The notes under the pieces were generated by a model. The model had not been told where the DNA came from. It was given only the letters and a program-made list of their open reading frames with translations, and did not search any database. Source: Oscillatoria sp. SIO1A7 (GTDB taxonomy: Bacteria > Cyanobacteriota > Cyanobacteriia > Cyanobacteriales > Laspinemataceae). Taken from it: 64,000 bases of DNA. The number at the start of each line of letters is the position of its first letter. The stretch's first letter is position 1. The stretch covers positions 1 to 64,000 of the forward strand of contig JAAHFN010000001.1 in assembly GCA_010672965.1 (NCBI GenBank), written 5' to 3'. Made by a program: the position numbers and the translations under genes. Shown piece by piece: positions 2,655 through 27,549 of this stretch.

Positions 2655-3554
2655 AATATAGCAATACGCATTTTTGGTTAGGGCAAATGTAGGGTATTGT
2701 AGCGGTCAAAAGTCTCAAGGTAATAACTCAAAAGTCTCAAGGTAATAAGTCAAAAGTCAAAGGTCAAAAGTCAAAAGTGTCAAGGTAATAATATCAAATC
2801 CGGTTAAAAAAATACAATATAGCACTACCGGTTAAGGTTAGGACAGTTACAAACGCTCTATTGCAATGATTGCAGGACTTTTGCTGACTGCTGACTGCTG
2901 ATAGCTGATAGCTTACTGCTATACTTGTAGGGGCGGTGCCCCCGTGCCCGCCCCTGCCCGCCCGATACTAACCGGGGCGATCGCGTTGGCGGAGCCTGCG
3001 CGCCGTGGAGCGCATAGCGTCTGGGCCCCTGAGAATCGCGGGGGGATTGCCCCTACTTGGTGGGTGTCATTAACCGGATTTAATATAAGTCAAAAGTCTC
3101 AAGGTAATAAGTCAAAAGCGAAGAAAACCAACCCCCGTTGCCAATTCCGCTCTTCCCAATGCCTGTCCTAAGCCTGTCGTAGTAACCATCTCGGCTGTAT
3201 AACGGGAATTTCTGTAGTGGGATGCTTCGCCCGTTTCGCCCCAGAAACTTCACATCAATTTGAGAACCGCTATAACCAGAGCTATAGCAGTTATCAAATT
3301 GATGCACAATCTCAAAGTGCAGTCAAAGCAAGGGTTTCAGCCGTTTCAGATCTATGTACGTTCTTTGAGAAGCGCTGTATGAAGATTAGTTATATAACTT
3401 GTAAGCTCGAAGCCCCGAAGCTTAAAACTTAAAACTTAAAACTTAAAACTTAAAACTTAAAACTTAAAACTTAAAATTTAAAACTTAAAACTTAAACCTC
3501 TACCCTAAGTAGTGTTATTCTGGCGAAACTGACGAGGTAACGGAAGGAGGTTGC
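2655..3554. repeat. 900-bp repeat-filled spacer upstream of ureC
   Basis: Contains repeated aaaagtctcaaggtaataa units (about 2710-2790 and 3090-3120). It also holds a copy (2835-2924) of a dispersed repeat ending in tgatagcttactgctata, and paired ends of the atatcaaatccggtt family near 2787 and 3068-3083 that enclose a GC-rich taggggcggtgcccc block. From 3419 to 3496 there is a run of about eleven heptamers of type acttaaa. No ureA or ureB is present. The frames at 2944-3171 and 3217-3432 have no recognisable homology. Confidence 0.8.
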
Positions 3555-5297
3555 ATGAGTTACCGGATGAATCGCCGCGCTTACGCAGAAACTTATGGAC
3601 CGACGGTGGGAGATCGCCTGCGTCTGGCGGATACGGATTTAGTCATCGAAGTAGAGCAAGACTACACCACCTACGGCGACGAAGTGAAATTTGGCGGCGG
3701 CAAAACAATCCGAGACGGGATGGGACAGTCCCCCATTGCCAACGCCGATGGAGCGGTAGATTTGGTAATTACCAACGCCCTGATTCTGGATTGGTGGGGA
3801 ATTGTCAAAGCCGATATCGGCATTAAGGATGGCAAAATTTTCAAAATCGGCAAAGCAGGCAATCCTTACATCCAGGATAACGTGGATATTATTATCGGGC
3901 CGGGAACCGAAGCGGTAGCAGGAGAAGGGTCGATAGTTACTGCAGGGGGAATTGACTCCCATATTCACTTTATTTGCCCGCAACAAATAGAAGTTGCGAT
4001 CGCCTCTGGCATCACCACCATGCTCGGGGGCGGAACTGGGCCAGCTACCGGCACCAACGCGACCACCTGCACCCCCGGCCCTTGGAACATTTATCGAATG
4101 CTCCAAGCCGCAGACGCCTTCCCGGTCAATCTCGGCTTTCTGGGCAAAGGCAATAGCAGCCAACCGGCGGGATTGACGGAACAAGTCCTCGCCGGTGCGA
4201 TGGGCTTGAAACTGCACGAAGACTGGGGAACGACCCCCGCCACCATTGACACTTGCTTGAGCGTCGCCGACGAATACGACATCCAAGTCGCCATCCACAC
4301 CGATACGCTCAACGAAGCAGGATTCGTAGAAAACACGATCGCCGCCTTTAAAAATCGCACTATTCATACTTACCATACCGAAGGCGCTGGAGGCGGACAT
4401 GCGCCGGACATTATTAAAGTATGCGGCGAGGCGAACGTGCTGCCTTCTTCGACCAATCCAACCCGTCCTTATACTCTTAATACTTTGGACGAACACCTGG
4501 ATATGCTGATGGTTTGCCATCACCTAGATCCTGGAATTGCTGAAGACGTGGCCTTTGCCGAATCGCGCATCCGCAGGGAAACCATAGCCGCCGAAGATAT
4601 TCTCCATGATTTGGGCGCTTTCAGTATGATTGCTTCTGATTCCCAAGCAATGGGTCGCGTGGGCGAGGTAATTATCCGCACCTGGCAAACTGCACATAAA
4701 ATGAAAGTTCAGCGAGGCTTTTTGCCTTCTCCTGCCAACCCACAGTCTCCGCCTATTTCCCAGGATAACCAGCCTAATGATAACTTCCGGGCGCGGCGGT
4801 ATGTGGCCAAATATACGATTAATCCGGCGATCGCTCACGGAATTGCCCAATATGTCGGCTCCGTGGAAGAGGGCAAACTAGCAGATTTATGTTTGTGGAA
4901 GCCGGCCTTTTTTGGAGTTAAGCCGGAAATAGTTATCAAAGGAGGAGCGATCGCCTACGCCCAAATGGGAGATGCCAATGCCAGCATTCCCACACCGCAG
5001 CCGGTTCTCAGCCAGCCCATGTTTGGCAGTTTTGGCCAAGCTCGCGCCGCCACTTGTTTGACCTTTCTTTCCCAAGCGGCGATGGAACGGGACATCCCAA
5101 CCCAACTAAAATTACAGAAGCAGGCAGTAGCGGTATCCGGCTGCCGCGAGTCGAGCAAACAAGATATGAAGCTAAATGATTTGCTCCCTCGCATCGAAGT
5201 CGATCCAGAAACTTACGAAGTCAGGGCTGATGGAGAGCTGCTCACCTGCGAACCGGCTACAGTCTTGCCCCTAGCGCAGCGCTATTTTCTTTTTTAA
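3555..5297 (+). CDS. ureC: Urease alpha subunit UreC
   Basis: Catalytic subunit of the nickel enzyme urease, which hydrolyses urea to ammonia and carbamate in the cytoplasm. All active-site residues can be placed: H136 and H138 (HIH), the lysine to be carbamylated K219 with H221 (GLKLHEDWG), H248, H274, the flap C321-H322 and D362. Length is 580, slightly above the usual near 570. The excess lies around 389-408, where a Pro/Ser/Gln-rich stretch precedes the conserved [14 protein letters not shown] before the ATG at 3555 fixes the start. The usual ureA and ureB partners are not next to it: the preceding 900 bases are repeats and the next gene is unrelated, so the other subunits and nickel chaperones must be encoded elsewhere. 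Residues look intact, so it is probably functional. Confidence 0.97.
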
Positions 5298-5709
5298 TGG
5301 AATTGGGCATGGGGAATGGGGAATGGGGCATTGGGCATTGGCACCCGTAGCGCGGGCGTCCCGCCTGCGCCAATTCCCCAATTCCCAATTACCGTAAGGC
5401 TTCGCGTCTCGCCTGCGCCAACGCCCAAAGCTGACTGCTTACTGCTGAGAGCTGACCGCTGTGAATGCCCAACGCCCCATGCCCAAGAGGCGCGATCGCT
5501 GCTCTGTGCCTAAAGCTTACTGTTTACTGCTGAGAGCTGACCGCTGTGAATGCCCAACGCCCCATGCCCAAGAGGCGCGATCGCTGCTCTGTGCCCAAAG
5601 CTTACTGCTTACTGCTGAGAGCTGACCGCTGTGAATGCCCAATTCCCAATCCCCAATTCCCCATTCCCAATTAATATATATAGGAGTTGCGCTAGTTAGG
5701 AATGACCCG
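5298..5709. repeat. Spacer with 85-bp tandem repeat
   Basis: An 85-base unit beginning gagagctgaccgctgtgaatgc starts at 5447, 5532 and 5617 (the last partial) and contains a HIP1 site. It is flanked by ggcattgggcatt- and cccaattcccaat-type repeats at both ends. An open frame begins inside the third unit at 5635 but this is repeat sequence, so the next gene is started at 5710. Confidence 0.85.
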
Positions 5710-6486
5710 ATGATTCAACAACTAGAGAAGCCAAACCAACAACTAGAGCTTTCCAACCAAAAGGCAGAGCCCAACCAAAAGGCAGAGATTATCTATCCCG
5801 ACAGCGACGGCGAGCCAATGTCAGATAACACCGAGCATTTTGAACTAATTGTCACGATTAAGAATAATCTGGATATAGTATTCGCAGATGCGGATGTCTT
5901 TGTAGCCGGAGACTTGCTCTGGTATCCGGTAGAAGGAGAAAACACTATCCGCTATGCGCCGGATGTCATGGTGGCATTTGGACAGCCAAAAGGACACCGG
6001 GGCTCCTATCAACAATGGAAAGAAGACAATATTCCGCCACAAGTGGTATTTGAAATCTGGTCGCCGGGAAACCGACTGGCGAAGATGGCCAAGAAATTTC
6101 AGTTTTACCAGAAATACGGCGTAGAAGAATACTATCTCTACAAGCCGGAGGGAGCAGACTTAACGGGTTGGCTGCGTTCTGGAGATAAATTAGAACCGAT
6201 AGAGGAAGTAGTAGGCTGGACTTCCCCTCGCTTGGGGGTGCGATTTGAAATCGAGTCAGATACTCTGGCTATCTATCGCCCGGACGGTCAGCGCTTTTTG
6301 ACTTACGAAGAATTGGAACAACAGGCGCAGCAAGCTCGGGAACGAGCCACCCAGGCCGAGCAACAGGCGGAGCAACAGGCAGAGCAGGCTCAGCAGGCCC
6401 AGGAACGAGCCACCCAGGCCGAAGCCCGAATCCTAGAGCTGGAAGCCCGACTGCGGCAAGAGGGAATCGATCCAGAACAGTTGTAA
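5710..6486 (+). CDS. Uma2-family (DUF820) nuclease-like protein
   Basis: A 258-residue protein of the Uma2 family, which has a PD-(D/E)XK restriction-endonuclease fold and is highly expanded in cyanobacteria; its biological role is unknown. The core spans about 35-190: YAPDVMVAFG carries the aspartate, VVFEIWSPGNR the glutamate of the nuclease motif, followed by KFQFYQKYGVEEYYLYKP. The last 60 residues are an Ala/Gln/Arg/Glu heptad-like coiled coil (EQQAEQQAEQAQQAQERA), common as a tail in this family. The ATG at 5710 was preferred over an in-frame ATG at 5635 because the region before it is tandem repeat and would encode low-complexity sequence. Solitary gene. Confidence 0.85.
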   Translation: MIQQLEKPNQQLELSNQKAEPNQKAEIIYPDSDGEPMSDNTEHFELIVTIKNNLDIVFADADVFVAGDLLWYPVEGENTIRYAPDVMVAFGQPKGHRGSYQQWKEDNIPPQVVFEIWSPGNRLAKMAKKFQFYQKYGVEEYYLYKPEGADLTGWLRSGDKLEPIEEVVGWTSPRLGVRFEIESDTLAIYRPDGQRFLTYEELEQQAQQARERATQAEQQAEQQAEQAQQAQERATQAEARILELEARLRQEGIDPEQL

Positions 6487-18942: not shown

Positions 18943-19419
18943 TTAGATATTAGTATTAAACTCGATAGCCATCGAACCTTTTGCCACCTTACCCAACTCC
19001 TCTAGTGGAGGCAAGTCTTTTAAAGCTGATTGGAAGCTGGAGGTTTCCTCAAATATATCGCGCAGAGTCAGCAAATGAATAGTAACATTACTAATGCCAT
19101 CATGTCCAAACAGTCGTTCTCTGAAAGTATCCTTGTATCCTATTCCTGCTAGCATAATGCTAACATCTACTTTATGATATTTTAGATCCGAATAGTACAG
19201 GCGCGCCTCATCCTTATCTAATCTTTCTCCTTTTAATTTGGATTGGAAATGTATTTTGCGCCCATTATAAAATAGGACTCCATCGATGCCATCGTCAGAG
19301 CCTCGCGGTCCTGGTGTTAATCCCAGATGCTTGGCAAATCGTCGCCCCAGATCCTGCTTGGTCGCAGGATCGGCGTTTAAAATTCCTTTAATGACATGAT
19401 AAGTCGCAAAATCAGTCAT
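18943..19419 (-). CDS. Putative Mrr-like PD-(D/E)XK endonuclease
   Basis: 158 residues. The block GSDDGIDGVLFYNGRKIHFQSK matches a restriction-endonuclease fold: D of DGIDG followed by an IHFQSK (QxK) motif as in Mrr-type nucleases. The N-terminal part (TYHVIKGILNADPATKQDLG) is a helical lead-in, and the rest forms a helical and beta C-terminus. It probably cuts DNA and is shorter than full Mrr, with no DNA-binding domain of its own. It begins nine bases after the preceding minus-strand gene (19429-19845), almost certainly one operon, suggesting a nuclease with a small DNA-binding or antitoxin-like partner. The assignment is from motifs only. Confidence 0.65.
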   Translation of the reverse strand: MTDFATYHVIKGILNADPATKQDLGRRFAKHLGLTPGPRGSDDGIDGVLFYNGRKIHFQSKLKGERLDKDEARLYYSDLKYHKVDVSIMLAGIGYKDTFRERLFGHDGISNVTIHLLTLRDIFEETSSFQSALKDLPPLEELGKVAKGSMAIEFNTNI

Positions 19420-19428
19420 TTTCGTCCC

Positions 19429-19845
19429 TCAAATGGGTTTAATATTTATATTCTGTTCGTAGAGCAATGTAATGCCCGTAATAGCATATTCTGCAATTTC
19501 TTTTGGTTCGATAGCGCCAGCTTTTCTCAGTTCGACAAAGGTTTCGGCATTCAAGTCAAGCTTGAAGGATCGCGAGCCGAGGTTTTGAGGATATTCTTTG
19601 AGTTTGCTTATGTCTAATCCTTGTTTTTCTCTGTAAAATAAAACATATTTTACAGCAGAGTTGAGCATCGATCGCACGGACAAGCCAAAGACATTACAGA
19701 GTTCTTCAATCTTTCCTTCCTGAGATTCCGTCAAGCAAATAGCGATCGCCTTGGTCTCGCGTTCTGCTTTACTTGCTTGCTGAGTACCTAACAAAATAGC
19801 CCGTTCTACTGTCGAATCTATAATTATGTTTTCCTTCAAAGACAT
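19429..19845 (-). CDS. Putative ribbon-helix-helix-like partner of the nuclease
   Basis: 138 residues, not recognised as a named family. Two similar segments follow each other. Residues 34-72 (AIAICLTESQEGKIEELCNV then VFGLSVRSMLNSAVKYVLFY) and 93-129 (SFKLDLNAETFVELRKAG, then IEPKEIAEYAITGITLLY) each have the order strand, helix, helix of a ribbon-helix-helix DNA-binding unit; this is inference from pattern. AAAGGAGG five bases before the ATG at 19845 is a strong ribosome-binding site. It is the first gene of a pair with the endonuclease-like gene, as in toxin-antitoxin or small restriction modules, where it would repress or neutralise the nuclease. Confidence 0.55.
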   Translation of the reverse strand: MSLKENIIIDSTVERAILLGTQQASKAERETKAIAICLTESQEGKIEELCNVFGLSVRSMLNSAVKYVLFYREKQGLDISKLKEYPQNLGSRSFKLDLNAETFVELRKAGAIEPKEIAEYAITGITLLYEQNINIKPI

Positions 19846-20113
19846 TTAAAGCCTCCTTTAAATCTTAAGCAAGAATTCTCCTTGTCCTGGAGTGCTTCAC
19901 CAGTAGCGCGATCGCTTCCTGTTGGCCTCTAAATATCAACACGCATACTGGCCCGCTCTGCCATAGAATAGGGAAAGCGGCGATCGCCTGAAATCTGTCG
20001 GTCTCAGTCGGGCTGGAGCGATCGGTGCCAAAAGTCGGTTGAATCTATTATAAAAACCAAAATAGCCGAATTGCGATCGCGGGCTACATGGCTTGACCTC
20101 GGAGGAAAAAACT
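19846..20113. repeat. Divergent spacer with a dispersed 36-bp repeat
   Basis: The sequence at 19947-19982 (starting actggcccgctctgccatag) recurs with few changes at 20512-20547. The two copies bracket the UPF0175 gene. Either could be a promoter or operator element, or the scar of a duplication. HIP1 sites flank it. Confidence 0.65.
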
Positions 20114-20422
20114 ATGACATCGCCAAAAACGCTCCTGGAAAATTTGGATATTTTAGTTCAAGAAGGAATCTATAAAGACAAAGAAGCTTTACTGCAAGAT
20201 GCCAAGCGGGCGCTACTTAGGAGCAAACCCGAACTGCGCGGCCTTATGGCAATTGCTCTGTACAAGCGAGAAGATGTTTCCCTGACGAGGGGCTCGGAAA
20301 TTGCTGGCGTCGATGTAGAGAGTTTTAAGGAAATGCTGCGAGAAGCAGGAGTCGAGCGCAGCATAAATTCTGTCGGCCATGCAATTCACCACGAAGTGGA
20401 ACAACTTATTGGCATCGCCTAA
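20114..20422 (+). CDS. UPF0175-family antitoxin, apparently solitary
   Basis: 102 residues. The segment ALYKREDVSLTRGSEIAGVD matches the UPF0175 helix-turn-helix region that usually pairs with a DUF3368 PIN-like toxin. No DUF3368 gene follows: the stop at 20422 is followed by a 280-base spacer and the large gene at 20706. GGAGG nine bases before the ATG at 20114 fixes this start over an upstream TTG at 20093. A canonical UPF0175/DUF3368 pair is present at 36621-37474. It may act as a lone regulator or a decayed pair. The 36-bp repeat occurs on both sides. Confidence 0.7.
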   Translation: MTSPKTLLENLDILVQEGIYKDKEALLQDAKRALLRSKPELRGLMAIALYKREDVSLTRGSEIAGVDVESFKEMLREAGVERSINSVGHAIHHEVEQLIGIA

Positions 20423-20705: not shown

Positions 20706-23700
20706 ATGGTATTTAGGTGGATCGGAAGATTATTTAACGGCCCCAACAAAATAGAAGGAATTGAGGAGCAAGTGGGAATAGGGGGCCAAGTCAAAATATC
20801 GCAAAAAAACGGCAGTGAGGTTTTTGGCAATGTAACATTTGTTCGTCCTGACAAGAAAGAAATAACGATTGTTAGTGGCAATGGCACGGTTAGTATAGTG
20901 CCTGAAGATTCAATAGAGTCTTTTTCCTATAACCCTTTGTCCCAGCAGGAGCGAACGGGCGGGGGAGTGACAGCAGAGCCAACCGAATCCGTTGCGCCAG
21001 TAACACAACCAGAGCAAACCCAAAGCCAACCGGCGACTACTCCGACTCAGTACGTTGCGCCAGTAACACAACCGGAGCAAACCCAAAGCCAACCGGCGAC
21101 TACTCCGACTCAGTACGTTGCGCCAGTAACACAACCGGAGCAAACCCAAAGCCAACCGGCAGCGACAGAACGGGTTTCGGCAACGCCCAAGCCCGAGCAA
21201 CCACAAGAGCAACCGACGCCAGAGCGAACCGAGCCTAGTTCGCAGCAAAAAGAACGTAATGACCAAAGTTTATTAAGAGTCATCAAGATTGAGGGTCGCT
21301 TTGACTCCAAGCTTGAAAATGCCAAGCTTGAGCTGAAGGAGCCGGATTTTCGATTTCCATCAAGCGAGCTTCACGAACGGCTGAGGAAAAATTGGGATCG
21401 GATTAAAAATCGCTACGACCATGCTCGCAAAAATAACGAGTTGAGTAGCAGACATGGACGAATACAGCCGCTGCTCCACGAGTTGACAGATTTGGCGAAG
21501 GATTTTCCCGATTCGCCCAGCTTGAAGCGACATCTCGCCTATTTGCACTATCTATCTAATAATTTTAAAGGAGCAACAAAATATTATAAGGATGCTGCCA
21601 TGTCCTCTCAGGCAGCAGAGGACTGGTTTAATGTTGCTGTTGTAGCCTTGCAGGAATCGGGTCAAGAGGCCGGGAAAGAAGAATTGGCCGCCTATGGTCT
21701 GAAACAGTTTTTTTGGCAAGAGTCCCTCGCTGGAGAAGCAGAGGCATGGTATGTTTATGTAAGACTGCTGAAAAAGTTTACCAACTATCCGGCTCTAAGG
21801 GAGCTATGCAGGGCAGAGCGAGAGTTTTCTGAGGGCGACCTAGAGCTGTTGCTGGAAACGGGGATTTATCTGCTCAAAGCCGCTGGCGAAGAACCCCAAG
21901 CCATCCAGGTGGCTAGGCAATGGAACGAAGGACAACCCCTGCAATCCCTGGCGCAAGAGACCTTCGAGTCGTTGGCTCAAAAAACGACGGAATCTTATCT
22001 ACGCTATAGCAACTATGAATCCCAACTGTCCAAAGAGGTTAGAAAAATCCAAGAGGAAATCCAAGACCGGGAAGGAAAGCTAATTCGAGGCTCTCTGTAC
22101 AAATACTTAAAGCCCCAAAAATATGGCTTTATCGTGGATGACGAAAATCGCCAATATTTTTTCCACTCAATCGACGTTATCGATGACGAACTGATCGAGG
22201 CGTTAAACCAATTTACCTCTTCCTTAGAGGAGAATATTACTGTCGTTTTTAAGGCTAAAAGAGTCCCCGAAGGGCTGAAGGCTCTCGATATAGCTATAGA
22301 TCGCAGGCTCGGTTGGAACGAGGAACCGGAGAGAGAGGGCGGAAGAGAGACTAGAGTGGCGGATTCCCAGCAAATAAAGGGCGACATTTCTACCTACTTC
22401 AAAGAAAAAAACTATGGTTTTTTGCGGGATCGGCGAGGCAGCGATTATTTCTTTCACAAAACGGGGATTATCGATGAGAACTTACAGAATCGACTGGAAA
22501 AGGTAAATGTATCGGCGTCCCCAATTGCCGTGCTGTTTGAAATGGGATGGGGCAAGGAAGGACCGATCGCGCTCGCTATTGTTGAGTACCGCGATACTGA
22601 TGATGTATTCCAACTAGCGAACGAGTATGCCGATGAAGGAGACTATGGGAAAGCGATCCAACAAATCAAGCGGGTTCTGGAAATGGAGCCCAATTATTCC
22701 CAAGCGCAGGAACTGCATGAAAAATGGCGTAAGTACGCTAGCGAAACCACTCTGCCTAAAGGATCTAACCCCTATGCCAAGGCCAAACGCGCCCAAGAGC
22801 TAGATCGGGACTATGAGGAGGCCGCCAGACTGTATCGTCAGGCGATCGCTCGACAGGACAACCTGGAAAGTGCCATCAAGGACTTTGCAAAGCTGCTTAC
22901 AGATCGCTTAAATCGTACTGATGAGGCCATTAAGGTTCTCGAAGAAAACCGTCAGAAGGTGAGAGATCGCAACTCCCTAGAAAACTTGTTGGTAAATATC
23001 TACAAGAGAGCGGGACAGTACGAGAAGGCGATTGCCTTGTTGGAGATAAAGCGGCAAGCAGCCGACAATCCGGGCAAGAAGGCTAAAATTTTCTGGGAAA
23101 TGGCTAACTGCTACCTCTACCTAGAAAACTTTGAGAAGGCTAAGGAGATTTTTAACAAGCTTTTAAAAATCAAACCGGACAACATAGCCGCGAAGCGGAA
23201 TCTGGCGATTTGCTACTCCCGCATGGGGCGTTACGAAGAGGCCGAAAAAGAACTCAACGAAATCCTCGACAGCTCTAACGACTCCAAATCGGCGGAAATC
23301 CTGGCTGCGATCGTTGAGGCAAAGCAAACGGGCCAAGGCACTCAATTAATTGAAATTGTTACGCAAACCATCCTCTCGGAGTTGGATACCGGGGAACTGA
23401 GCGGATTTGCCCAGTTCTTCTTAGAGCGCTGTGGCTTTCAGGGGGTGGATCCCGAGAGAGTCCCAATCGAAGAGGATCGGGAGCGCAGAAAATATGTCGG
23501 TTCGGAAAGGGACGCTAACCAGGACATCGAAAGGCTCCAAGGTTTTGCTAAGGATCAGGGAACCAGCCGCCCCGGGGACAGGAGCAATTACCATCTATCA
23601 GCCGCGAGAATCCTACTTGACATAGGGGAAGATCGCGACTATTCCAAATACCTTTATCGAAGCTTTACCTCCAGGGGAGATGCTGCCGTCAAAGAAAATC

Positions 23701-26042
23701 GACCCCTCGATACTGCCCGGGAGTGGTATAGCGAGGCCCTCAGTATCTACGATCGCGTTCCTGGCGGGCGAGACGAGCAAGATGCTGCCAATGCCCTGGT
23801 GCGATTTTTATTTTCAACCCTGGGACGGGACTTTATTTCCACTACGCCAAATGCAAGGCTCTCGATTGACGAAGCCGTGGAAACGGCGATTACTCATCCC
23901 TACGCTCAACAGGACAAAGCTTTTGATGCCATTGCCTATTTAGTCTGGCGCAGCCGCTACGCTGCCAACCGCATTCTGGATCGCATCCACAGAAAGCAAA
24001 CCTTACAGGCATTGGCTATCAAATATCTCAACAATCGGGGCATCGAGGCTCCCAAGTGGACAAAAAATATAGACGAGTTCGTGGAGTTGTGGGATGAACT
24101 GCGACGCCAACAATCCGAGGCAGCGCGCTCCTTGGCTAATGAATTGCGCTTCCTGACCCGCGTTAGCTTGACAACTGCATCCTTGGAAAACGGCATTGGG
24201 CGAGCTATGAAAGTTCTGGAGAATCGCTTACTCTTAGACCTGGATGGGCAAAGAGTCCAGAAGTTGCGAGAAACTTTGGCAACAGCCCTAGACCTGAGCC
24301 GCGAGAAGAGTTTTGAAGAGCGGGAGCGCCTCTGCATTCAGATCGAGAACCGCTGTCAGGATTTGTTCAAGGAGATCGAAGACAATCCTACCAAGCTATC
24401 CATTGAAGAAATTTATCCGGTCGTAGAAGCACTTCAAAAGCGAGCCCACGAAGAGCTAACCCAGCTCTACGAGACGGCCAAGCCACAAGTATCCCTGCGC
24501 TTGGCCGTGGATTCCTATGTGCCGGACAAGCAGCGGCAAATCGAAGTACAGATCGCGATCGCCAATGAGGCAGGCCGCAGTCCCGCTGAGTCTTTAGAAC
24601 TGCTAGTTCAAAAGGAGGACAATTATTTTGACGCCCTAGATTCAGAGATTAAGCTCGATGAGTCATTGCGGGGCGGGGCTCAGAAAATCGCCTACGTTCG
24701 CTTGTCCCTGACTGAGGAGGCGTTGCAGTCTGAAACCTTTTCCTTAACTCTGTCTGCTCGGTATCGCACCCGTTCCCAAGATGTAGAACAAACCGACCCC
24801 TACAACTTCGGCATTAAGCTCTATTCTGAGGAGGATTTTGAGCAGATTGCCAACCCCTATGCCGCTTATGCAGAAGGAGGAATTGTTGGAAAACCAGAGA
24901 TGTTCTTTGGGCGCGGAGAGCTGATCCAGACTATTGCCCGCTCTATCCGCGAGTCTCGCTCCCAGAGTAAATGCGCGATCGTGTTCGGTCAAAAACGGGC
25001 GGGAAAATCGTCTATTTTGCATCATCTTAAGGTAGAGTTGGAAGCTGACAAAGACTTGATGATTCTCGATGTCGGCAACATTGGCGCTATTTTGGATGAG
25101 AACTCGGAAGTTCCCCTGCTCTATCAGATACTCTGGGGGATTTTGAAGGAACTAGGGTATGCGATTGAGGATCGGATTGACGAAGGATACAGCGATCTCA
25201 ATCTGCAATGGCCTACAGATATGGATTTCTACGACCATCCCAGCCCTTTGACACTATTCCAAGACCTACTCGATCGCTTCCAGCGTGCCGCATCCAAGCG
25301 AGAAGACTGGCGCAACCTGCGGATTGTGGTCTCGATCGATGAGTTCTCCTATATATACCAGCAAATAGTGGCCGGACGCATCGCCCCAGAGTTTATGAAA
25401 AACTGGAAAGCGATTTTGCAGCGGAACTATTTTAATGTCGTACTGGTGGGTCAGGATGTGATGCCCAAATTTAAGCAGCGCTTTGCCAATGAGTTTGGCA
25501 CCAGCCAGGACGAGCGAGTCACCTATCTCCGGGAAGAGGATGCCAAGAAGCTGATTGATGAACCGATCCGCATTGGGGGACGAGAGGGCAAAACCCGCTA
25601 CCGCGAGCAAGCTATAGCGCGCATTTTAGAATTAACAGCGGGCAGTCCTTTCTACATCCAAATTATCTGCAATCGACTGGTGGAGGATATGAACCGCCGG
25701 CGGGTCAGCCTGGTAACCGAGGCAGATGTGGAACAGGTTAAAAACGACCTGATCCGGGGGGTCAATCCCCTGGGACTGGATAAATTCGAGAATTTGGTTA
25801 ATTCTGGAGATACGTCAGCAGAGGCAATTTCTGACGAAGACGCCCTGGCAGTGCTAAAAGCCATAGCCCTCAATAGCCGCACGGGGCTCTGTCTTCGCAG
25901 CAGCATCGCTTGCCAAACAGATACGCCGATTGACGAGATTCTCGAAGATCTGGCTCAGCGAGAAGTTATAGACCGGGAACGGCAGGAATATTACGAGATT
26001 AAGGTGGGCTTGTTTAAAGAATGGCTGATTGCCAAAGGTTAA
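20706..26042 (+). CDS. Large TPR / twin cold-shock-like / AAA ATPase (STAND-type) protein
   Basis: 1778 residues. In order: a small SH3- or Sm-like domain (about 25-75); a Pro/Gln/Thr linker of three 21-residue repeats (about 95-160); TPR-like helices (200-440); two cold-shock-like domains (about 461-545 with KYGFIVDDENRQYFFHS, and 558-640 with NYGFLRDRRGSDYFFHKTGI); more TPRs (640-870); a long helical region; a beta domain (about 1265-1365). Then, after NPYAAYAEGG and FFGRGEL, comes an AAA/STAND ATPase with Walker A GQKRAGKSS (1428-1436) and Walker B D1545-E1546, ending in a winged-helix-like region. This looks like a sensor-switch conflict ATPase. The cold-shock-like domains suggest RNA or DNA sensing. 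Its product is followed after 4 bases by a second ATPase gene. Confidence 0.75.
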   Translation: MVFRWIGRLFNGPNKIEGIEEQVGIGGQVKISQKNGSEVFGNVTFVRPDKKEITIVSGNGTVSIVPEDSIESFSYNPLSQQERTGGGVTAEPTESVAPVTQPEQTQSQPATTPTQYVAPVTQPEQTQSQPATTPTQYVAPVTQPEQTQSQPAATERVSATPKPEQPQEQPTPERTEPSSQQKERNDQSLLRVIKIEGRFDSKLENAKLELKEPDFRFPSSELHERLRKNWDRIKNRYDHARKNNELSSRHGRIQPLLHELTDLAKDFPDSPSLKRHLAYLHYLSNNFKGATKYYKDAAMSSQAAEDWFNVAVVALQESGQEAGKEELAAYGLKQFFWQESLAGEAEAWYVYVRLLKKFTNYPALRELCRAEREFSEGDLELLLETGIYLLKAAGEEPQAIQVARQWNEGQPLQSLAQETFESLAQKTTESYLRYSNYESQLSKEVRKIQEEIQDREGKLIRGSLYKYLKPQKYGFIVDDENRQYFFHSIDVIDDELIEALNQFTSSLEENITVVFKAKRVPEGLKALDIAIDRRLGWNEEPEREGGRETRVADSQQIKGDISTYFKEKNYGFLRDRRGSDYFFHKTGIIDENLQNRLEKVNVSASPIAVLFEMGWGKEGPIALAIVEYRDTDDVFQLANEYADEGDYGKAIQQIKRVLEMEPNYSQAQELHEKWRKYASETTLPKGSNPYAKAKRAQELDRDYEEAARLYRQAIARQDNLESAIKDFAKLLTDRLNRTDEAIKVLEENRQKVRDRNSLENLLVNIYKRAGQYEKAIALLEIKRQAADNPGKKAKIFWEMANCYLYLENFEKAKEIFNKLLKIKPDNIAAKRNLAICYSRMGRYEEAEKELNEILDSSNDSKSAEILAAIVEAKQTGQGTQLIEIVTQTILSELDTGELSGFAQFFLERCGFQGVDPERVPIEEDRERRKYVGSERDANQDIERLQGFAKDQGTSRPGDRSNYHLSAARILLDIGEDRDYSKYLYRSFTSRGDAAVKENRPLDTAREWYSEALSIYDRVPGGRDEQDAANALVRFLFSTLGRDFISTTPNARLSIDEAVETAITHPYAQQDKAFDAIAYLVWRSRYAANRILDRIHRKQTLQALAIKYLNNRGIEAPKWTKNIDEFVELWDELRRQQSEAARSLANELRFLTRVSLTTASLENGIGRAMKVLENRLLLDLDGQRVQKLRETLATALDLSREKSFEERERLCIQIENRCQDLFKEIEDNPTKLSIEEIYPVVEALQKRAHEELTQLYETAKPQVSLRLAVDSYVPDKQRQIEVQIAIANEAGRSPAESLELLVQKEDNYFDALDSEIKLDESLRGGAQKIAYVRLSLTEEALQSETFSLTLSARYRTRSQDVEQTDPYNFGIKLYSEEDFEQIANPYAAYAEGGIVGKPEMFFGRGELIQTIARSIRESRSQSKCAIVFGQKRAGKSSILHHLKVELEADKDLMILDVGNIGAILDENSEVPLLYQILWGILKELGYAIEDRIDEGYSDLNLQWPTDMDFYDHPSPLTLFQDLLDRFQRAASKREDWRNLRIVVSIDEFSYIYQQIVAGRIAPEFMKNWKAILQRNYFNVVLVGQDVMPKFKQRFANEFGTSQDERVTYLREEDAKKLIDEPIRIGGREGKTRYREQAIARILELTAGSPFYIQIICNRLVEDMNRRRVSLVTEADVEQVKNDLIRGVNPLGLDKFENLVNSGDTSAEAISDEDALAVLKAIALNSRTGLCLRSSIACQTDTPIDEILEDLAQREVIDRERQEYYEIKVGLFKEWLIAKG
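20991..21165 (+). repeat. 63-bp in-frame tandem repeat
   Basis: Unit starts (gttgcgccagtaacacaacc) fall at 20991, 21054 and 21117, so the period is 63 bases, or 21 codons. The repeats encode the PVTQPEQTQSQPATTPTQY linker between the N-terminal domain and the TPR region. Near-identity of the copies points to recent expansion. Confidence 0.9.
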
Positions 26043-26046
26043 AAAG

Positions 26047-27549
26047 ATGACATCCGATCTAGAAAACCCCTTTGCCGATTACGGGAACATCGTATTTGGC
26101 TCCCCTTTCATCGGTCGCCAGCAGAGTCTCAGGGCCATTGAGAGCCGGATCGTCCGCCCCAAGGAGGCTGGCAATCTGGCCATTATTGGCGAGCCCCGCA
26201 TTGGCAAAAGTAGCTTGATCTATCAAGCGATTATCCAGCGCAAAGACGAGCTGGCCGATCGCAAAATCCTGCCCATTTGGATTAACTTGGCCACCTATGA
26301 CGAGCCCTCGGCCTTTTTTCGCGAGCTGGTGACATCCTGCCAGGACGAAATGGAGGATTTGGGCTGGCTGACCGAACCGATTGAACGGGCGGCCAGTCGC
26401 GCCTTAGAAGAGCAGGTCTCTTGGAATGAAGGCTATGGAAGAATCCAGCGGTTTTTCGGCAAGGTGAGGAAAATCTGCCGGGTCGTCTTCATTCTGGATG
26501 AGTTTGACCATGCCCGCCATCTTTTTAAAGGAAATGTTGCCGGATTTCAGGGATTGCGAGAACTATCCTATCGTCCCGAATGGCGGATAACTTTTGTGAC
26601 CGCATCCCGCCGCAGCATCCACGATATTGAGGTTCAGTCTGGAGCCATTTCTACCTTCGATGGGATTTTCCAAAAGCATTACTTAGGGATGTTTGCCCCT
26701 GAAGACTTTCAGGAATATCTGCAGCGGTTGGCCTCTGCTGGTGTTTCCCTTGCCAATGAGGCCATAGAGCGGATCGCTTTTTTTTGCGGGCGGCATCCTT
26801 TTCTCCTAGATATGCTGGGCTATGAAATGGTAGAGCTGTTTCGAGACAATCGAGACAACCAAAGCGTTGATGTGGAGCTAGCTGCCCAAAGGATTGCCAA
26901 TTCATTTTTGTTAGACTACTACGACAGTATAGTTAGGCTGCTGCAAGAAGACGATAGGCTGAATAAATTAATTTCGATTCTTTTCGGTCCGACAGTGGGA
27001 GTGAAGCAAACCGATATTGATGAGTTTATGCAGTACGGTTTAATCGAGCCAGCTCCCAAAGGTGCCGAGCAAATTTATGTAGGCTTTTCCGAGCATTTTC
27101 ACAATTTTCTCGGCTTGGTAGAACGGGAGCAAGGCATCGGCGACCTCTGGAAGCAAACCGAGAAAGCGCTCCGCCATCTGGTCGCCAGGACAATGGAGGA
27201 GGAATATGGAGAGCGCTGGGTCTCCAAGCTGGAGCGAAGTCATCCTAAGCTGAAACCGATTTTTGCCCGCTGCCGGGAGAAGCAAAATCAGGAAGCCAAG
27301 TGGTTTGGCAGCCGAGCCTCCCAGAACTTAATGGACTTTGCTTCCGCCGCCGACTTGTTTGCCATTATTTTTATTAAATGGGAGAGTTTTAAATCCATAT
27401 TCGGGCAAGACCTGGAATATTGGCAGGAGCGCTCCGCATGGCTGGAAAAGGTCGCTACTTCCTTAGCCCAAAATCGCGACGAATCCCTGCAAGAATACGA
27501 TCGCAAGATTGCCGAGGGATATTGCCAGGAGATTTTGAGCTTATTTTAG
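26047..27549 (+). CDS. AAA/STAND ATPase partner of the 1778-aa protein
   Basis: 500 residues (ATG at 26047; a TTG at 26029 would overlap the upstream gene). NPFADYGNIVFGSPFIGR at the start parallels the NPYAAYAEGG...FFGR junction just before the ATPase of the preceding protein, so the two ATPases are related. Walker A is GEPRIGKSS at 48-56 and Walker B is FILDEFD with D151-E152. The rest is helical with a possible winged helix near 300-350 and a C-terminal region of unknown fold. Cotranscription with 20706-26042 is near certain, and a heteromeric sensor-effector pair is the simplest guess. No nuclease, protease or TIR effector domain was recognised. Confidence 0.78.
   Translation: MTSDLENPFADYGNIVFGSPFIGRQQSLRAIESRIVRPKEAGNLAIIGEPRIGKSSLIYQAIIQRKDELADRKILPIWINLATYDEPSAFFRELVTSCQDEMEDLGWLTEPIERAASRALEEQVSWNEGYGRIQRFFGKVRKICRVVFILDEFDHARHLFKGNVAGFQGLRELSYRPEWRITFVTASRRSIHDIEVQSGAISTFDGIFQKHYLGMFAPEDFQEYLQRLASAGVSLANEAIERIAFFCGRHPFLLDMLGYEMVELFRDNRDNQSVDVELAAQRIANSFLLDYYDSIVRLLQEDDRLNKLISILFGPTVGVKQTDIDEFMQYGLIEPAPKGAEQIYVGFSEHFHNFLGLVEREQGIGDLWKQTEKALRHLVARTMEEEYGERWVSKLERSHPKLKPIFARCREKQNQEAKWFGSRASQNLMDFASAADLFAIIFIKWESFKSIFGQDLEYWQERSAWLEKVATSLAQNRDESLQEYDRKIAEGYCQEILSLF

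Follow-up and report, generated by a model that had tools for sequence, protein, structure and literature searches.

A pair of genes on the minus strand of the window, by which we mean the whole 64,000-nucleotide stretch of Oscillatoria sp. SIO1A7 DNA analysed here, proves, on comparison with its relatives, to be a ParA-less form of a three-gene cassette. In its full form the cassette runs over about 1.7 kb from a ParA-type ATPase gene, through the gene of a tandem (double) ribbon-helix-helix (RHH) protein, to the gene of a predicted Mrr-like nuclease; it is a new combination of known parts. We are highly confident of this anatomy. As to function, we prefer, at a probability of roughly 45%, a conflict module in which the double RHH protein would bind DNA and control a DNA-cutting nuclease with ParA as an accessory, a mechanism that we infer from the comparisons below.

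The gene pair and its predicted proteins

The first-pass annotation had described two open reading frames separated by 9 bases, the first of them with a strong ribosome-binding site. Their coordinates proved exact, both lie on the minus strand and start with ATG, they encode 138 and 158 residues, and the ribosome-binding site is recognisable by eye (Table 1). The pair has a GC content of 40.8%, compared with 48.9%, and falls within the lowest 3.2% of 900-base windows. The HIP1 palindromes (GCGATCGC) upstream of the pair were considered as operators and rejected: the whole window holds 97 copies where 1.4 are expected by chance, and because of this overabundance those next to the pair are uninformative.

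Table 1. Features of the gene pair, with positions in the window
Feature	Position	Strand	Basis
Gene of the tandem (double) RHH protein as modelled, 138 aa	19429..19845	-	ORF; AF2 model; fold matches to F relaxosome chains, DndE, single-chain Arc and CopG
Gene of the predicted Mrr-like PD-(D/E)XK nuclease, 158 aa	18943..19419	-	ORF; AF2 model; fold matches to AspBHI, MspJI, FokI and EcoT38I; Mrr_cat in 16/21 family members
Predicted ribosome-binding site AAAGGAGG of the double-RHH gene	19852..19859	-	Sequence, by eye; strong; 6 bases before ATG
9-base gap between the genes; putative nuclease ribosome-binding site TGAGGG overlaps the double-RHH stop codon (19429-19431)	19420..19428	-	By eye
N-terminal helix of double RHH, residues 11-29, moderately conserved V..AI..G pattern	19759..19815	-	AF2 model and family alignment; low-confidence start precedes
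First RHH unit, residues 34-75	19621..19746	-	AF2 model
Second RHH unit, residues 93-132; conservation across the family peaks in its last helix	19450..19569	-	AF2 model and alignment
Nuclease residues D42 to D46 (DDGID)	19282..19296	-	D42 and D46 invariant in 21 sequences
Nuclease Q59-S-K61, QxK of the PD-(D/E)XK core	19237..19245	-	Q59 invariant; K61 in at least 90% (21 sequences)
Upstream intergenic region; site of the ParA-type ATPase gene in intact cassettes, none detected here	19846..20107	.	Locus comparison

The upstream protein is modelled as a tandem RHH, with two strand-helix-helix units in one chain. Its AF2 model (mean pLDDT 78.5) begins with a low-confidence stretch, continues with a helix and then forms the two units, the first from a strand at 34-37 and helices at 40-53 and 57-75, the second from a strand at 93-96 and helices at 100-108 and 114-132. 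The best fold match is to chains of the F-plasmid relaxosome (9f0x and 9f0z; Z 10.9 over 100 residues at 2.7 A), which we take to be TraY; DndE is the next family (Z 10.3), and single-chain Arc (6.9) and CopG (4.0) come lower. Together with the model, the relaxosome and DndE matches bear out the two similar strand-helix-helix segments noticed at first pass. Foldseek E-values were weak (best 0.023), its first 19 rows being all relaxosome or DndE chains, and VirC2 is absent among the fold matches, an absence that decides nothing. At the level of sequence, a weak hint comes from the PHROGs family phrog_582 (Arc-like repressor), matched by 3 of 24 members with a best E of 0.0015. Pfam gave 13 scattered families, each in 1 or 2 of the 24 and none of them RHH, and the window protein itself had zero matches in PADLOC 2.0.0 or NCBIfam at E ≤ 10.

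The downstream protein is predicted to be an Mrr-like PD-(D/E)XK nuclease. Its AF2 model (mean pLDDT 87.3) best matches AspBHI and MspJI, both in their C-terminal parts only (Z 8.2 each; 124 and 129 residues; rmsd 3.3 and 3.4), followed by residues 1-183 of Avs4 (Z 7.2), FokI and the BspD6I small subunit (6.9 each), and EcoT38I and EndoMS (6.0 each); in Foldseek the top match is EcoT38I (E 7.6e-5), with Cap4 at E 0.007. The matched parts of Avs4 and Cap4 are presumably their nucleases. Since a Z of 8.2 is only moderate on the fold-search tool's own scale, and since nearby scores are reached by RPB5 chains (7.4 at most) and carboxylases (6.1 at most), the assignment rests on fold, motif and Pfam family jointly. 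The conserved core that holds DGIDG and QSK keeps D42, D46, G47, F58 and Q59 invariant and K61 in at least 90% of 21 aligned sequences, and 16 of these 21 match Mrr_cat at E ≤ 0.05 (best 8.8e-6). The nuclease identity proposed at first pass from these two motifs is thereby supported by the fold, the D..QxK core and the family's Mrr_cat matches. Alignment to a PD-(D/E)XK profile is a property of the family, and the window protein alone had zero matches in Pfam, PADLOC, PHROGs and NCBIfam at E ≤ 10. PDB-sequence profile searches with the nuclease and double-RHH alignments returned only matches that we judged to be chance.

In close pairs of cassettes dN/dS is below 1 in all 10 values for the double RHH and in 9 of 10 for the nuclease (an eleventh pair was too similar to give a value). 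The exceptional nuclease value, 1.16 for L022 against L072, falls in one clade (L022, L023, L030 and L072) that reads FQCR where the other aligned members read FQ[SC]K; nine other pairs give 0.10-0.63, among them L022 against L023 of the same clade with 0.30, and three of the four loci of this clade keep all three reading frames.

A three-gene cassette and its decay

In most of the relatives found through the nuclease, a ParA/MinD-type ATPase is encoded upstream of the double RHH, identified by PDB profile hits to Soj, McdA and ParF and by the Pfam families AAA_31 and CbiA. The Lys that marks a deviant Walker A motif is present in 6 of 16 aligned cassette ParAs and is N, S, D or G in the other 10; in McdA this Lys is reportedly replaced as well. 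The VirC1 profile stayed below its cut-off in the two cassette ParAs scanned (E 0.018 and 0.13; 14.8 and 12 bits vs 24). We examined 62 loci, 53 of them distinct by a computed test, and find the intact trio in 33 of the 53. The first-pass annotation was right that the pair is a genuine unit and missed the three-gene system to which it belongs. Across the 33 intact trios the pairwise distances of the three proteins correlate with r 0.85-0.87, a level that 0 of 2000 permutations reached, in a test where shared species history remains.

The other 20 loci are incomplete. In 8 of them the double RHH and nuclease are intact while ParA fails, being broken in 7 and not found in one, the window copy, which is the only locus with an intact pair and no detected ParA. 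A further 10 have an intact double RHH and a broken or absent nuclease (9 without L096, which is cut by a contig end). In L020 the double RHH is broken near its C-terminus, with an intact nuclease and no ParA match, and L065 retains only fragments of ParA and nuclease. Failures thus number 15 for ParA, also the longest of the three genes, 11 for the nuclease (L096 included) and 2 for the double RHH; a rump of the ParA P-loop region persists upstream in L011 and, by eye, in L020. Because ParA is broken or missing beside two intact partners in 8 loci, the RHH-nuclease pair looks like the core of the cassette.

Within this core, decay is asymmetric: the nuclease is lost beside an intact double RHH in 9 loci, and the double RHH is broken beside an intact nuclease in 1. 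Nearly all loci were found via the nuclease, a search that should favour nuclease-intact, RHH-less copies, yet only one such copy turned up. The counts include close relatives (e.g. L005 and L015) and are therefore not independent events, and assembly errors or a nearby contig end (L092) may account for some of the breaks. The rarity of an intact nuclease without the double RHH is as expected for a controller or an antitoxin. The comparative evidence fits a controller/effector pair and is compatible with both an antitoxin-toxin and a mini-restriction operon.

A type II toxin-antitoxin or addiction module would account for the same asymmetry, with the double RHH as DNA-binding antitoxin and autorepressor, the nuclease as a toxin damaging the host's DNA once the antitoxin has gone, and ParA as an extra stability gene. 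The two genes are small and tightly spaced, the RHH gene comes first with its strong ribosome-binding site, and RHH folds are common in antitoxins. The delta/omega genes of pSM19035 are reportedly coupled to a toxin-antitoxin pair, and the cassette is present or absent without a recombinase at two sites described below. We nevertheless regard such a module as unlikely: an intact ParA accompanies an intact pair in 33 of 53 loci, which is unusual for type II modules, neither window protein finds a PADLOC or NCBIfam match at E ≤ 10, and the pattern of divergence taken up below sits awkwardly with autorepression.

The missing ParA raises the question of whether the window copy does anything at all. 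No ParA is detected at its locus, and no second cassette-type ParA is found in the 9.08-Mb genome; four ParA-family hits elsewhere were considered as partners serving the pair and set aside, the best of them scoring 44.7 bits (model positions 7-98) vs 214-321 bits for intact cassette ParAs. The window copy, lacking ParA, may be a relic. The stricter version, in which the copy has no function and the two remaining genes are drifting, draws on this lack and on the 20 incomplete loci of 53; we consider it improbable given that both reading frames are intact with the invariant motif residues kept, that the first gene has a strong ribosome-binding site and that its stop codon overlaps the ribosome-binding site of the nuclease gene.

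Co-occurrence and distribution

A single-sequence search found the nuclease in 25 of 194 related genomes, the window's own included. Profile searches of the same 194 genomes gave 35 strong places for each protein, and the association is strict, as the pairing proposed at first pass would have it. The double RHH adjoins the nuclease or its remains in 34 of its 35 places (four weak rows left out), and the nuclease adjoins the double RHH in 34 of 35 (36 rows, with one gene split in two, and seven weak rows left out), the exception being a 46-residue fragment in G179. The one strong double-RHH place with no nuclease is a decayed cassette in G097, which has a ParA fragment and lies between sufD-like and sufS-like genes (named by eye). 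Because the nuclease is present in 25 of 194 genomes, the pair is nearly always adjacent and dN/dS is mostly below 1, the gene pair is more than a chance arrangement. In a phylum-wide sample of 386 genomes we find strong matches in 13, all 13 in the gene order of the window, and two more weak ones.

Copies on contigs of 4.7-7.7 Mb are chromosomal (G005, G006, G021, G049, G105, G119, G129, G133 and G192), and one genome, G105, carries four. Plasmid cargo as a rule was rejected, the trio being found on 1 of 72,556 plasmid records, that of Synechococcus elongatus UTEX 3055 (L074), where the genes are annotated as 'ParA family protein', 'hypothetical protein' and 'restriction endonuclease'. The same record has, at 4944-6289, a second ParA gene and a 214-aa hypothetical protein by a tyrosine recombinase, about 2.6 kb from the trio. 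Among 22 named contigs one has a non-cyanobacterial label, a 5.3-kb contig of a Parabeggiatoa MAG (GC 38%) whose intact trio (L083) reflects either transfer or contamination. A phage origin was also rejected: 50,697 phage records gave no match, and one alignment-based scan of viral contigs confirmed none. A single-protein scan of genome contigs returned 63 pattern matches and confirmed no relative. In a literature search over titles and abstract openings, with most subscription papers and bioRxiv preprints outside its reach, none of the matches listed describes the ParA–double RHH–nuclease trio.

Presence and absence at defined sites

Two sites capture the cassette as a unit of presence and absence. 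Upstream of valS it is found in 3 of 10 genomes of one genus (Planktothrix, by the named copy) and absent in 7, the empty alleles having 53-64 bases of host-like DNA in place of 1.73 kb. In the genus of G105 it lies between Uma2-like and aldo/keto-reductase-like genes, with 15 bases instead in 3 of 7 genomes; three others are without the left neighbour and uninformative. Four genomes of the window's own family (G004, G006, G008 and G001) keep rluD and the linker genes together, and other reading frames occupy the cassette position there. Insertion sites vary between lineages. Recombinase-driven insertion was rejected, as no terminal repeats or target duplications are seen by eye at the two presence/absence sites.

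We surveyed the 80 nearest neighbours of 20 cassettes, two on each side. The immediate neighbours are mainly housekeeping genes with no evident defence island, and no integrase, transposase or relaxase is among the 25 commonest of 156 neighbour Pfam families, though some may lie among the other 131. PIN (3), DUF29 (3) and Uma2 (2) occur among the 80, and PADLOC names such as PDC-S03, mad3, DpdF and PD-T4-6 each in 1 or 2 of them (among 25 of 71 families listed). By eye, an IS630-like transposase adjoins the cassette in L113.

These data bear on a self-spreading element, in which nicking or cutting of DNA by the nuclease would mobilise the cassette, either in a homing-like way or as a minimal relaxosome with a VirC1/VirC2-like ParA and double RHH. 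We think such an element very unlikely. It would draw together the 1.7-kb presence/absence at two intergenic sites, the relaxosome chains at the head of the RHH fold matches and the four copies in G105. It is hard to reconcile with the lack of visible terminal repeats or target duplications at those sites, with filled and empty alleles that also differ by 53-64 or 15 bases of host-like DNA, with sites that differ between lineages, with the absence of integrases and relaxases from the 25 commonest neighbour families, and with VirC1 scores below cut-off in the two ParAs scanned.

Divergence of the double RHH and upstream repeats

Comparison of closely related cassettes shows where they change. 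Between L012 and L013 a divergent patch lies in the double RHH around the DNA-reading strands, where identity drops to 69% per 100 bases, while most of the remaining cassette and 231 bases upstream are 94-100% alike. Between L007 and L008 the patch (70-78% alike) spans the end of ParA and extends into the double RHH. Upstream of ParA, similarity is 92% over the nearest 92 bases and falls to 40-47% farther out. Among five close pairs the patch is clear in these two, a weak dip in two more (80 and 82%) and absent in the fifth. The patches in the double RHH of L012/L013 and L007/L008 resemble exchange of a recognition domain. In two close pairs the double RHH has changed and the DNA immediately ahead of ParA has not, and these alignments weakly favour a target lying outside the operon rather than autorepression; the same pattern is odd for the autorepressor of a toxin-antitoxin module and counts against that alternative.

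We then ask whether the DNA upstream of ParA carries a centromere-like site. An excess of exact 7-mers over first-order Markov sequences is found in a single cassette of 24, L009, which is the L106 locus. Tandem Repeats Finder reports arrays in 4 of 20 upstream kilobases vs 23 of 79 control windows of the same loci; since arrays are no commoner upstream than in controls, these sequences suggest no general centromere-like array in the cassettes. Two of the arrays are heptads, ATTGGTT x5 in L097 and AATTCAA x6.6 in L106, and they make a partition-like site possible in some members (L097/L002 and L106/L009). The array of L097 recurs in L002 at 3248-3291 as five tandem ATTGGTT about 185-220 bases before ParA. 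L002 and L097 are the nearest relatives of the window cassette, and their heptads are a possible binding array of the double RHH. In the window, the kilobase upstream of the pair has no tandem arrays.

Partition as the main function was demoted to a minor rival on the 7-mer and array counts, and is kept as one because of the heptads. As a plasmid-type (type Ib-like) partition cassette, ParA and the double RHH would segregate DNA with the nuclease as an incidental passenger. The ATPase does belong to the ParA family, one copy is on the S. elongatus plasmid, and the RHH partner has a low-confidence N-terminus like the flexible tail that PMC5016525 describes for type Ib centromere-binding proteins. 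Short arrays precede ParA in 4 of 20 cassettes, two of these arrays being heptads, and heptad repeats are what omega binds. That arrays are no commoner than in controls, that a 7-mer excess occurs in 1 of 24 cassettes only, that copies on 4.7-7.7 Mb contigs are chromosomal, that ParA fails more often than its partners (15 of 53, though also the longest) and that another ParA gene lies 2.6 kb from the plasmid copy together make this account highly improbable.

A proposed mechanism

In the conflict module that we prefer, the double RHH would read DNA sequence through its two-strand ribbon, bind the nuclease, restrain it and decide where it may cut. The nuclease would be the DNA-cutting effector, directed against DNA that bears the RHH site or is sensed as foreign. 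In the full cassette the ParA ATPase may move or load the complex of double RHH and nuclease on DNA, a role that ParA proteins have towards centromere-binding proteins of the RHH kind; the window copy would work, if at all, without this step. We count in favour of the conflict module that Avs4 (Z 7.2) and Cap4 (E 0.007), both defence proteins, are among the lower fold matches of the nuclease. Against it we count the mainly housekeeping neighbours with no evident defence island, the FQCR clade without the motif Lys, and the ATTGGTT heptads of L002/L097, which a partition system might have.

A more specific form of the conflict module is possible, though on balance we doubt it: an undescribed cyanobacterial conflict class of partition-guided restriction. 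Here parts of a DNA-segregation machine, ParA and a single-chain double-RHH reader, would have been converted into a device that guides an Mrr-type nuclease and keeps it safe, the reader diversifying its DNA specificity, the cassette spreading as a unit between intergenic sites, and the core in the window outliving its ATPase. If true, plasmid partition and restriction, which are normally separate, would be joined in a three-gene unit of 1.7 kb, and proteins annotated as in the plasmid record would gain a function. The unit is small enough for whole cloning, deletion and assay, and the natural presence/absence pairs (3 filled and 7 empty at valS) and naturally occurring variants without ParA or without the nuclease already provide controls. 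What is of interest is the family; the window copy is its reduced form.

Relation to known systems

Several known systems share parts of the cassette. TraY of the F-plasmid relaxosome, if the matched chains are indeed TraY, is the closest structural match of the double RHH; TraY acts in conjugation with an HUH relaxase, and to our knowledge its system has no ParA and no PD-(D/E)XK enzyme. VirC1 and VirC2 of Agrobacterium, a ParA-like ATPase and a single-chain double-RHH protein, resemble the first two cassette genes; they differ in that the two cassette ParAs scanned fall below the VirC1 cut-off and that only the cassette has a nuclease, since we know of none with the VirC pair. With Mrr and MspJI-type enzymes the nuclease shares the PD-(D/E)XK fold with QxK. 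In those enzymes a distinct recognition domain is part of the same polypeptide, whereas the window nuclease consists of the catalytic domain only and has a putative DNA-binding partner encoded as a second protein; its nearest folds, AspBHI and MspJI, belong to modification-dependent enzymes. No family of the PADLOC 2.0.0 anti-phage defence profiles matches either window protein at E ≤ 10.

By analogy, the cassette would work most like a DndE-plus-ATPase scanning core and resembles type Ib partition in its parts, the full definition of neither being reached. DndE has two RHH units and, in partnership with an ATPase, is interpreted as a scanner of DNA next to nucleases (PMC10853773). That account has the DndD/DndE features most like the cassette, namely a two-RHH protein and an ATPase in a conflict system, nucleases encoded nearby and DNA-reading strands that vary; it also gives a Dnd ATPase of the ABC kind, unlike the ParA of the cassette (PMC10853773). 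DNA-modification genes accompany DndE and are absent among the 25 commonest neighbour families of cassettes. Type Ib systems (ParF/ParG; delta/omega of pSM19035) combine a ParA-family ATPase with a small RHH protein that has a flexible N-terminus (PMC5016525), and omega binds heptad repeats according to the title of a reference cited there. The cassette likewise encodes a ParA-family ATPase and an RHH protein together in 33 of 53 loci, the window copy not being one of them. It differs in having a double rather than a single RHH and a nuclease gene within the unit, in showing no excess of upstream repeat arrays, and in being chromosomal in several cases on multi-Mb contigs.

In the window, the gene divergent to the pair (20108-20422, plus strand) encodes a UPF0175 protein (PF03683, E 5.2e-8) with a weak RHH_8 match (E 0.01), antitoxin-like in character. 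Beyond it on the plus strand, a 1778-aa TPR/cold-shock/AAA protein (20706-26042) adjoins the gene of a 501-aa AAA protein (26044-27549) with a Swt1-like HEPN match below cut-off (E 0.0005), and these two genes together look like a large NTPase conflict system.
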